DNA of 55,664 bases, from NCBI GenBank assembly GCA_943359525.1, contig CALRHV010000005.1:1-55664 (forward strand), in the 5' to 3' direction. The first letter of the stretch is position 1; every line of letters starts with the position of its first letter. This document shows positions 27,859-51,401 of this stretch, one piece after another. Under the pieces are notes generated by a model. That model was not told the DNA's origin. It saw only the letters and a program-made list of their open reading frames with translations, and did not search any database. Source of the stretch: Candidatus Uhrbacteria bacterium. GTDB taxonomy: Bacteria > Patescibacteriota > Patescibacteriia > UBA9934. The position numbers and the translations under genes were made by a program.

Positions 27859-28254
27859 ATGCGAAAGCTGGTAGCGATTTTTGGTGGAATACTTACGATG
27901 ACTGCGCCGCGGGCTGTTTTCGCGATCGATGCCACCGACTACGCAGCCGGCACTGGGCTAAAAACCACAGCAGGGGAGGCATTCGGAGAAACGTGGGTTG
28001 GTGCGAATGGTTCGCTTTCTACGTTTATTGGAAAAAACATCATTCAGCCAATCTTTGGACTTGTCGGCCTCGGCTTCTTTGTTCTTGCGGTGTACGCCGG
28101 CGTGTTGTGGATGACTGCACAGGGTGATCCAAAGAAGGTGGAGAAGGCAAAGGATATTTTGGTCAACGCAACCGTTGGGCTCGTCATCATCGTGTCAGCA
28201 TACGTGCTCACGAATGCCATTCTGAGCGCAGTCACGTCCGGATCGGTAACCTAG
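27859..28254 (+). CDS. T4SS pilin-like protein 4
   Basis: A 131-aa paralogue: signal-like start (AIFGGILTMTAPRAVFA), a 40-residue polar region, helix 1 (IFGLVGLGFFVLAVYAGVLWM), the turn TAQGDPKKVEKAKDI and helix 2 (ATVGLVIIVSAYVLTNAILSAV). The turn is almost identical to those of pilins 5 and 6, showing recent duplication. It begins 5 bases after pilin 3. Confidence 0.75.
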   Translation: MRKLVAIFGGILTMTAPRAVFAIDATDYAAGTGLKTTAGEAFGETWVGANGSLSTFIGKNIIQPIFGLVGLGFFVLAVYAGVLWMTAQGDPKKVEKAKDILVNATVGLVIIVSAYVLTNAILSAVTSGSVT

Positions 28255-28263
28255 TAGCCGCGT

Positions 28264-28608
28264 ATGACCAGAATTCTCGCCGCCATTGCCGAGCCTTTCA
28301 ATACGGCACCTCTCGGAAATGCTGCAGCTGGTGCGTACGGTGGTACCGCGCCGTCCACAACACTGTTCTCCGTGATGACGAATATTGTTACTGCGGTGTT
28401 TAGCCTGCTTGGACTCATCTTTCTCTTCCTCACGTTGTACGCGGGGTTTTTGTGGATGACGGCAATGGGGGATCCAAAGAAGGTCACGAAGGCAAAGGAT
28501 ATTTTGACGCAGTCGGTGATTGGATTAATCATTGTTCTGCTTTCGTATGCCATCTCGTTCTTTGTTGTCAATCTTGTTGGCACTGCCGGAGGATTCGATG
28601 GGATATAA
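28264..28608 (+). CDS. T4SS pilin-like protein 5 (no clear signal peptide)
   Basis: A 114-aa paralogue with helix 1 (FSLLGLIFLFLTLYAGFLWM), turn TAMGDPKKVTKAKDI and helix 2 (SVIGLIIVLLSYAISFFVVNLVG). Unlike the others its first 35 residues (MTRILAAIAEPFNTAPLGNAAAG) are only weakly hydrophobic and lack a convincing signal peptide, so it may be inserted in the membrane by its helices alone. It begins 9 bases after pilin 4. Confidence 0.72.
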   Translation: MTRILAAIAEPFNTAPLGNAAAGAYGGTAPSTTLFSVMTNIVTAVFSLLGLIFLFLTLYAGFLWMTAMGDPKKVTKAKDILTQSVIGLIIVLLSYAISFFVVNLVGTAGGFDGI

Positions 28609-28670
28609 CCATCCACAGCCCAGCGATTTCTCAACGTGATACACTATTCACATAATATTTTGTAAATTGT

Positions 28671-29051
28671 ATGTCGAAACTCAAGAACATCCTCATCGGC
28701 GCAGCGCTCGTGGCACTGCCATTCGGTGCGGCAATGCGCATTCCGTTTATTCATGCCGCGGACCTCACTTCAAATCTCGACCTTGTGGGTGGCGAGTCCG
28801 AACTCGGAAATGAAGAGCTCACCACCACAATTGGTAAGCTTATTTCAGCATTGCTCAGCGTGCTTGGCGTTATTTTCTTGCTTCTCATTGTCTGGGCTGG
28901 CTTTACCTGGATGACCGCACAAGGTGATCCAAAGAAGGTGGACAAAGCAAAGGACATTCTCATCACTTCCGTTGTGGGATTGATCATCTTGCTCTCGGCA
29001 TACGCCATCAGCACGTTCGTTATTGAGCAACTTGCTACAGCAACCGGATAA
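28671..29051 (+). CDS. T4SS pilin-like protein 6
   Basis: A 126-aa paralogue with a signal peptide (ILIGAALVALPFGAAMRIPFIHA), ELTTTIGKLISALLSVLGV, helix 1 (IFLLLIVWAGFTWM), turn TAQGDPKKVDKAKDI and helix 2 (SVVGLIILLSAYAISTFVIEQL). It is last in the array, 62 bases from pilin 5, and that gap contains TGATACACT, so it may have its own promoter. A strong terminator follows. Confidence 0.75.
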   Translation: MSKLKNILIGAALVALPFGAAMRIPFIHAADLTSNLDLVGGESELGNEELTTTIGKLISALLSVLGVIFLLLIVWAGFTWMTAQGDPKKVDKAKDILITSVVGLIILLSAYAISTFVIEQLATATG

Positions 29052-32976: not shown

Positions 32977-34284
32977 TTATTTCGACTCCTTCTTCACCAT
33001 CATCCCTATCAAACAGAACACCGTCAGTATTGCTAAATCATTTTTGAAAAACGGCACATCTACCAATCCATGAATTGTCATCGTAAGGATCGCTGCGGCA
33101 AATGCCAGCACGAGCGCGTCGTCTTTTCGTCGCCATGCGGTTCGTATAATGAGGATCGCTCCGATGATAAGTCCTATGAGTCCAATAAGCCCCAGCTCCG
33201 ACCACACGTTTAAGAAAATATTATGTGGGTACTGGAAGATTTCGTAGAACGTTGCGTTGTGATATGGCGTGAGTACGACGGGATAGCCATTAAGTCCAGC
33301 ACCAAGGAACGGACGATCCGCAAGCATCGTAAGAGTTTCACTCCATTGTGCTCGACGAACGAGACCAGAAGAATCGTGAAGCGTAATCTTTTGTACGATC
33401 GATGGCACAAAAATCATTACAGCGGACGCCCCAGCAATTGTTGCGGCGATGATGGCGTATTTGATCCGTCCAGCAATCGGCGCGAGAAGTCCGATGATCA
33501 CGAGCGCAACGGGAACTGCGATGAGTGCCGCTTCTGTTTTTGCGGCAACGATTCCACCGAGCATGAGAAGAATCGCGCCTCCCCCAGCCCCTCCATAAAT
33601 GGAGGGGAGCCACTCAGTGATTCCTCTCCCCCCATTTATGGAGGGAGTCGGAGGGGGGCTTGTCCGTACGGAGATGATTCGGTTGAAGAACCTCACCACC
33701 GCCATCGCCATAATCGGCGCGATGAACAGACCAACGGCGTTTGGATAGTCGTAGAGTGACGTTGCGCGGTTTTCAATCGCCCATGCGTCGGGAATGCCGA
33801 AGTGAGTGAGAGCTTGGAGAATAGCAAGGGTGCCGACGACGGTTGCTGATGCAATAAGTGCGGTGATGATGCGTTCAGTATCTGCGCGGTCGGGCATTAC
33901 CGACTTAATGACGAGCGCAAGCAGAATTGGTTCGATGATGTACGCCTTGAGAATGCCGAGCGCGGAAAGTGTGTCCGGTGCGATGACGGTGGAGACGATT
34001 CCGGCGATGACAATGAGTACGATTGGAGCCCGATACCATCCGAACGATTCCCAAACCGTAGAGACGGCTCGCTGCGCCGTCTCCGATCGTAATCGAAGAA
34101 CGGCGAGCGCAATCGTGATCAACACAAAGCCTTCAAGCAGCGTAGAAGGAATCGGTCCAACATCCAGTCGAATAAGATACGTCGGTAACAATGTGAAGAG
34201 AAGAACGATGCCGAGTTTTTGATTTCGCCAAGAGAGAACAGCAAAGGCGGCAAGGAGGATCGTAAGGAGGGCGGGAAAGATCAT
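32977..34284 (-). CDS. O-antigen ligase/polymerase family membrane protein
   Basis: A 435-aa protein with about ten to eleven membrane helices and the Wzy/WaaL-type loop near residues 325-360 (ADRPFLGAGLNGY, then FYEIFQYPHNIFLNVWSELGL), where the H of PHN is the conserved residue. It would link or polymerise surface glycan on the outer side of the membrane. It begins 6 bases after the flippase stop, forming a two-gene unit. Residues about 208-237 (SPPPTPSINGG, ITEWLPSIYGGAGGG) are encoded by an 83-base palindromic repeat inserted in frame. Confidence 0.87.
   Translation of the reverse strand: MIFPALLTILLAAFAVLSWRNQKLGIVLLFTLLPTYLIRLDVGPIPSTLLEGFVLITIALAVLRLRSETAQRAVSTVWESFGWYRAPIVLIVIAGIVSTVIAPDTLSALGILKAYIIEPILLALVIKSVMPDRADTERIITALIASATVVGTLAILQALTHFGIPDAWAIENRATSLYDYPNAVGLFIAPIMAMAVVRFFNRIISVRTSPPPTPSINGGRGITEWLPSIYGGAGGGAILLMLGGIVAAKTEAALIAVPVALVIIGLLAPIAGRIKYAIIAATIAGASAVMIFVPSIVQKITLHDSSGLVRRAQWSETLTMLADRPFLGAGLNGYPVVLTPYHNATFYEIFQYPHNIFLNVWSELGLIGLIGLIIGAILIIRTAWRRKDDALVLAFAAAILTMTIHGLVDVPFFKNDLAILTVFCLIGMMVKKESK
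33578..33660 (-). repeat. Palindromic repeat inserted in frame in the ligase gene
   Basis: An inverted repeat with two CCCTCCATAAATGG-type cores: arm 1 (33578-33616) and arm 2 (33620-33660) are near complements. It stays open in frame and encodes a Pro/Gly-rich loop. A half-length relative is in the riboflavin synthase gene (51238-51275). Confidence 0.75.
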
Positions 34285-50771: not shown

Positions 50772-51401
50772 ATGTTCACCGGAATCGTCAAAGGCCTTGG
50801 AACGGTTGCCGCGATTGATCGTCGTGAAGATTTTTTGGATATCACCATTGAGGTCGGAAATGTTTTATCGATTCCCGAGATTGGTGCGAGCGTGGCGGTG
50901 GACGGTGTGTGTTTGACGGTGATCGAGATCGACGGAACGAAGCTGAAGTTTTCGGTGATGGAAGAAACGCTCGAGAAGACGACGATCGGCGACCGCGCGG
51001 TCGGTGATCGTGTCGGCCTCGAACAGCCGTTGAAAATGGGCGACGAACTCGGTGGCCACATGGTGCTCGGGCATGTGGATGGCGTTGGGACGATCGTGAA
51101 GAAGGATATCGACGGCGAGAATTGCTGGGTGACGATTGCGGCACCAGAGTTTTTTGTAAAATATATTGTGCAGAAAGGATCGATTGCGATTGATGGGATC
51201 AGTTTAACGATCTGTGATCCTGCGCCAATCTCGAACGCCCCCTCCAACTCCCCCATAAATGGGGGAGAGCCACTCATCGGAGTTCGCTTCTCCGTCTCGC
51301 TTTTGCCACTGACGCTCTCGTTGACGACGTTGGGTTTCAAGAACGTTGGTGATCGTGTGAACCTGGAGGCTGATTATGTGCTGAAGGCGATGGTAAAATA
51401 A
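50772..51401 (+). CDS. ribE: Riboflavin synthase alpha chain with an in-frame insertion
   Basis: A 209-aa protein with two lumazine-binding repeats. Repeat 1 starts MFTGIVKGLGTVAAID and includes VAVDGVCLTVIEID; repeat 2 includes HMVLGHVDGVGTIVKKDID and SIAIDGISLTICD. It converts two molecules of dimethylribityllumazine to riboflavin plus a pyrimidinedione. Between ICDPAP and GVRFSVSLLPLTL about 17 residues (ISNAPSNSPINGGEPLI) are encoded by a palindromic repeat not found in other riboflavin synthases; elsewhere this is a short loop after strand F. The other rib genes are not in the window. Confidence 0.9.
   Translation: MFTGIVKGLGTVAAIDRREDFLDITIEVGNVLSIPEIGASVAVDGVCLTVIEIDGTKLKFSVMEETLEKTTIGDRAVGDRVGLEQPLKMGDELGGHMVLGHVDGVGTIVKKDIDGENCWVTIAAPEFFVKYIVQKGSIAIDGISLTICDPAPISNAPSNSPINGGEPLIGVRFSVSLLPLTLSLTTLGFKNVGDRVNLEADYVLKAMVK
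51238..51275 (+). repeat. Palindromic repeat inserted in frame in ribE
   Basis: CCCCCTCC, CTCCCCCATAAATGGGGGAG and AGCCACTC form a half-length version of the element at 33578-33660 in the ligase gene. Both keep the same reading frame, coding for S(P)INGG. Confidence 0.75.

Follow-up and report, generated by a model that had tools for sequence, protein, structure and literature searches.

The window, that is, the whole stretch of 55,664 nucleotides that was analyzed, is contig C5 of the draft assembly (864,550 bp in 23 contigs) of a Candidatus Uhrbacteria bacterium, denoted here the host (G000); like those of its named relatives, of which the closest by riboflavin synthase are Candidatus Uhrbacteria bins, this assembly is probably metagenomic. 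Two genes in the window carry copies of the same palindromic repeat, for which R1 denotes the covariance model:

50772–51401, plus strand: riboflavin synthase gene ribE, 209 aa, frame intact, two Lum_binding domains (E = 1.2e-44)
51237–51278, plus strand: in-frame 42-nt insert in ribE, half a REPIN, consisting of one REP unit and part of the inner spacer, GAGCCACTCA, that is common to full pairs
51237–51247, plus strand: C-rich head of the ribE unit, GCCCCCTCCAA, located 5′ of the hairpin in every aligned copy
51248–51267, plus strand: hairpin of the ribE unit, 8-bp stem and 4-nt loop (DNA fold −8.9 kcal/mol, z = −2.95)
32977–34284, minus strand: O-antigen ligase-type gene (Wzy_C, E = 1.1e-16) that carries a full inverted pair in frame
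33576–33610, plus strand: first unit of the ligase pair (R1 match, 51.4 bits, E = 6.6e-13)
33624–33658, minus strand: second unit of the ligase pair (R1 match, 45 bits, E = 6.6e-11)

Elsewhere in the window (27859–29051), three tandem, paralogue-like genes of about 115–130 aa share a 108-nt stretch (at 28054, 28399 and 28854) with 68–75% identity.

Compared with the orthologues from the same genus, ribE contains 42 extra nucleotides, exactly 14 codons, which encode APSNSPINGGEPLI; the palindrome proper is the 20-nt hairpin CTCCCCCATAAATGGGGGAG, and the C-rich head that precedes it is non-palindromic. The claim of the earlier note that a palindromic repeat is located in frame within riboflavin synthase is confirmed by this comparison, but the 38-base span assigned to the insert was a few bases short and the 17-residue string took in three flanking residues in addition to the 14 that are real. 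The covariance model matches the ribE copy with E = 7e-15, a value obtained with this copy among the training sequences of the model. The insert is absent from the ribE orthologues in all three same-genus genomes that possess the gene (89–92% identity); the loci without it are L064–L066 and L111–L113, and the more distant riboflavin synthases also lack the inserted loop. The condition that the earlier note gave as refuting its reading, a loop common to organisms without the repeat, was thus not observed. The earlier note called the enzyme essential, which may be too strong: in G002, a further genome of the genus (about 97% complete), no match to ribE was found. It is scarcely credible that riboflavin synthase had this loop natively from of old and that the loop resembles the repeat by chance: the turn does vary in length, and in L067 the same turn carries a longer and unlike loop, but the DNA of the host loop matches a repeat family and the sister orthologues without the loop effectively rule this explanation out.

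RibE is 40% identical to the Escherichia coli riboflavin synthase (1i8d; TM 0.87), and the AlphaFold2 model (mean pLDDT 88.9) retains the known fold, with high pLDDT in the core and values below 50 for residues 156–165. In this model, the insert lengthens the turn of the β-hairpin between strands 148–153 and 170–177; at the same position, the turn of E. coli RibC is short. The dN/dS values of ribE in comparison with the sister species are 0.05–0.11, with dS near 1, which indicates purifying selection on the gene overall. The insert is presumably translated as an additional loop, one that is probably harmless. Another Uhrbacteria riboflavin synthase (L072) contains an in-frame insert of another REP type, CCCCTCTCCTTCACAAGGAGAGGGACAGGGTGAGGTC/YPSPSQGEGQGEVIAS, at a different site (2150–2210).

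The core of the unit, YCCATAAATGGR, is present in 18 copies in the 864,550-bp host genome, compared with none for the reversed control, and thus the core is repeated above chance; the units occur both inside and outside of genes, with 16 of 22 groups located within genes (see below). The unit consists of a C-rich head, situated 5′ of the hairpin in all copies, and a hairpin with an ATAAAT loop; in the consensus, GCCCCCTCCRACTCCCCCATAAATGGGGGAGAG, the CGTC end (the tag of RPE-4 and RPE-6) and the GTAG tetranucleotide are both lacking. In the full element, a frequent arrangement, two units are opposed, their heads pointing outward, and are separated by a spacer in which GAGCCACTCACTGA occurs; the single units stop within the spacer of the pair and accordingly look like half copies. 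With 7 inverted pairs in the host genome, a spacer between the paired units and hairpins supported by DNA folds, the architecture is that of a REPIN. A sister family of units combines this head with a loop of the TTGAAAAG type, and the host units fall into two sister families. All copy counts come from pattern searches and covariance searches; across the genus, the R1 model detected 30 units in the host genome, 70 in G002, 26 in G004, 17 in G003 and 6 in G001. Among 193 genomes, the exact 14-base core was detected in five, including four from the genus; R1 matches dwindle outside the genus but are numerous in a second genus of the family. In a distant genome of the same class (G183; L041, L045, L049, L052, L055), a five-copy repeat has the same 14-base core, CCCCATAAATGGGG, in quite different flanks. 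Five of the six reading frames of the unit are stop-free, and all five, on both strands, are used by the in-gene copies, so that the open-frame condition for residence within a gene is easily satisfied.

When nearby units are merged, the host genome contains 22 groups, of which 16 lie in frame and stop-free inside conserved genes, namely those for UvrB, UvrC, RadA, MutY, TruB, MiaA, RibE, the O-antigen ligase, a CCA/poly(A) polymerase-type enzyme, a SufS-type aminotransferase, a penicillin-binding protein, an SMC/Rec-type ATPase, a methyltransferase, a glycosyltransferase, a PEP-utilising enzyme and a PKD protein. The identities of these genes are backed by Pfam matches and confirmed by alignments of the orthologues from sister species of the genus; the count itself is biased, given that the in-gene copies were selected by open frame, and the same bias applies to the observation that no gene split by an out-of-frame copy was noticed in the host. 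Among the remaining six groups, four flank two genes of the DUF559 family and the others are intergenic or could not be assigned. The ligase gene contains a full pair, and the G004 orthologue has a pair at the same site, a position that was probably inherited. The earlier statement that the ligase gene carries the core in the reading frame of ribE holds for one unit, which encodes PSINGG; the gene is on the minus strand and contains two inverted units, and the second is read in a different frame as PSIYGGAGGG. A ribosome bypassing the insert, or its removal from the RNA, would keep it out of the protein altogether, and the hairpin that the insert forms could be taken to fit such skipping; removal, however, requires neither multiples of three nor open frames, yet all 16 in-gene groups (a set chosen by open frame) have both, and we regard this explanation as very improbable.

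The DUF559 (PF04480) genes link the repeat to a potential mover. The genus contains six such genes (two each in the host and G002, a single gene in G001 and in G003, none in G004), all of which adjoin R1 units within about 60 bp; four of them (G000 C16, G002 C19, G002 C11 and G003 C4) are bounded by R1 matches at either side, the units being inverted with the heads outward. Flanks of 300 bp were scored by the best inverted repeat that one side forms with the other, with a cut-off of 14 or more. This score is attained by 40 of the 54 DUF559 genes of related genomes, compared with 0 of 51 shifted windows in the same loci (Fisher p = 2e-17, a value that overstates independence because the DUF559 genes are related to one another), and only 1 of 243 control windows from other loci does. 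Small GIY-YIG genes in the relatives have such flanking repeats in 6 of 30 cases, and thus the flanking of DUF559 is not a result that any small nuclease gene would give. Flanking inverted repeats extend to distant plasmid DUF559 genes of cyanobacteria, alphaproteobacteria and Deinococcus, six of nine of which score 16 or more (maximum 102, in Sinorhizobium meliloti), and the REP type of the L072 insert is multi-copy in G068 and G043, where DUF559 is also bracketed by that REP. Two individual loci may be mentioned: in Sphingomonas (L345), a DUF559 gene bracketed by inverted palindromes lies between sufB and sufC, and in Deinococcus (L349), one lies in the paa operon between paaD and paaZ.

Comparison of the sister genomes reveals sites at which these units vary. 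In the trxB-trxA interval, a DUF559 unit of about 550 nt is present in G002 and G003 and missing from G000, G001 and G004. The site between the O-antigen ligase-like and glycosyltransferase genes is occupied by a DUF559 unit in the host, a palindrome pair in G002, another pair in G004 and a GIY-YIG gene in G001 and G003. The latter gene (G001:C9:31156-31615 and G003:C3:87255-87692; L355 and L354) is flanked by its own repeats, GTCATTGCGAGGA..GCAATCTAGG.

Based on these observations, with a probability of roughly 0.64, the ribE insert represents one half of a mobile, REPIN-like palindrome of Candidatus Uhrbacteria, and the family of this palindrome is closely tied to a small gene for a DUF559 (Vsr-like, PD-(D/E)XK) nuclease that lies between inverted copies of these units. 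The REP-DUF559-REP arrangement would be the self-sufficient form, and the pairs and single units its non-autonomous derivatives; the DUF559 nuclease would mobilise the units by nicking or cutting hairpin DNA. The copies inside genes would last if the added length is divisible by three, the frame stays open and the site is a surface loop. The DUF559 gene may nevertheless be cargo instead of the driver. No DUF559 match was found in G004, G014, G017, G019 and G051 despite many units, and the genome-wide co-occurrence of units with DUF559 is weak (Fisher p = 0.06, 71 genomes). The covariation of DUF559 sequence with REP type is weak as well (rho = 0.17, 5 of 500 permutations), with a crude extraction of the arms and two identities of 1.0 in the table that are artefacts of a truncated frame; by eye, REPIN spacers and the inner ends of the DUF559 units show no clear similarity beyond the units.

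Cargo is what DUF559 would be if the units were ordinary REPs and REPINs on which a RAYT-type Y1 tyrosine transposase acted in trans to mobilise them, with the nuclease gene merely caught between two REPs. The REPIN-like architecture of the units (PMC3116915) is consistent with this possibility, as is their presence, within the family of the host, in 15 of 15 genomes with a Y1 gene compared with 2 of 8 without (Fisher p = 0.0003); this co-occurrence is, however, strong only in that family, where it is confounded by ancestry, and vanishes outside it (p = 1.0). A Y1_Tnp gene is present in the host, yet the Y1 genes are not flanked by units: there are no R1 matches in 58 kb around 19 Y1 loci, and the inverted-repeat scores of the Y1 flanks (7–9) equal the background. 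Moreover, G002 holds 64 units (70 with the deeper search) and has no Y1 match, and the unit lacks the GTAG and CGTC tags. We therefore consider movement by a RAYT unlikely.

The loops that carry the units in the host are used repeatedly in the genus. For 11 of the 16 genes, DNA alignments with the four sister species, read by eye, place a repeat at the corresponding loop of one or more sisters; with the covariance model alone, 60 orthologue stretches yielded 19 unit matches, almost all of which fall at the loop. In many cases, the palindromes differ. The UvrB loop is of the CCCGCGAAGGCGGG type in G001 and G004 and is empty in G003; the SufS loop is of the CCTTACGAAGGAGG type in G002 and G003, contains another palindrome in G001 and none in G004; and the RadA and MiaA loops are filled in every sister that was inspected, with the MiaA loop of G003 and G004 (L247, L248) containing an in-frame GTAGAGACG...CGTCTC hairpin that has the appearance of a GTAG-tagged REP. 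Peptides of the HPREGGDP type, derived from the CCCGCGAAGGCGGG palindrome, fill host-unit loops in L215, L218 (UvrB) and L249 (SufS). At the RibE loop, no other palindrome was found within the genus. Different palindrome families at one loop cannot be inherited. A single comparable case has been described, recB of two Xanthomonas species, in which REPs occupy about the same site (PMC3733652).

The same pattern could also arise if the units were not actively moved at all and instead owed their spread to recombination, to template switching at hairpins or to gene conversion among copies already present, the loops being simply places that tolerate such DNA. Different palindrome families occur in sisters at the same loops and at the same intergenic site, sometimes nested, and inspection of the sister-species alignments by eye revealed no clear target-site duplication, both of which are compatible with passive spread. 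By contrast, the discrete half and full forms of constant architecture, as well as the DUF559 unit for which three sister species have an empty site, look like insertion events, and we find passive spread rather improbable. A broader picture might also hold, one to which we assign somewhat less than even odds: a DUF559 (Vsr-like) nuclease that mobilises its own palindromic REP units without a RAYT would define a bacteria-wide class of mobile DNA that is undescribed in the literature searched, and in the streamlined genomes of Patescibacteria the units would keep inserting in frame at a few tolerant loops of housekeeping proteins, with different families replacing one another.

Palindromic repeats without a GTAG tag or a linked RAYT have no obvious mover, and a nuclease gene bracketed by the repeats, in several phyla, is a concrete candidate for one. 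The repeated use of the same loops by unrelated palindromes provides a natural map of insertion-tolerant sites in core enzymes, UvrB, RadA, MiaA and SufS among others, and suggests that selfish DNA reshapes proteins even in very small genomes.

The insertion of REPs and RPEs in frame is already established (PMC3733652, PMC10969869). In the portion of the literature that was searched, outside which lie most subscription papers and preprints, no report was found of in-frame palindromes in Patescibacteria or of a link between palindromic repeats and DUF559. For the nuclease, the closest comparison is Caulobacter VsrA, which, according to passages of PMC12907096, is a DUF559 member and predicted PD-(D/E)XK nuclease tied to cytosine methylation and DNA damage; it thus shares the Pfam domain and the predicted nuclease fold with the Uhrbacteria proteins, whereas these passages mention neither palindromic repeats nor gene mobility. 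The REPINs of Pseudomonas fluorescens likewise consist of two inverted REP units and a spacer, with singles that look like remnants, but they are extragenic and tied to RAYT genes (PMC3116915), whereas the host copies are mostly inside genes and the Y1 genes are unflanked. The intragenic GTAG/CGTC REPs resemble the present repeats in being located inside genes, many of which are DNA repair genes (PMC3733652); they differ in that the Uhrbacteria unit is untagged and that loop reuse extends over many genes and across different repeat families, and no link to DUF559 was found in the passages of PMC3733652.

The parallel with the Rickettsia palindromic elements that was drawn in the earlier note is apt with respect to the phenomenon, and less so with respect to the element. 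The RPEs (Ogata and colleagues, as cited in PMC10969869 and PMC3733652) are palindromic repeats as well and reside in frame within many housekeeping genes, and RPE-4 and RPE-6 are intragenic and carry the CGTC tag (PMC3733652). In both lineages, in-frame palindromes occur in several unrelated genes (16 groups here), and truB and uvrB have been struck in both (PMC3733652). The Uhrbacteria unit, however, has neither the CGTC nor the GTAG tag, is inserted on both strands and structurally is nearest to REP/REPIN; the half units are shorter (about 35–42 bp), have another sequence and come from another phylum. Furthermore, RPE families have a characteristic peptide (PMC10969869), whereas the Uhrbacteria unit is read in five frames, and the Uhrbacteria repeats, in addition to residing within genes, bracket a DUF559 gene.
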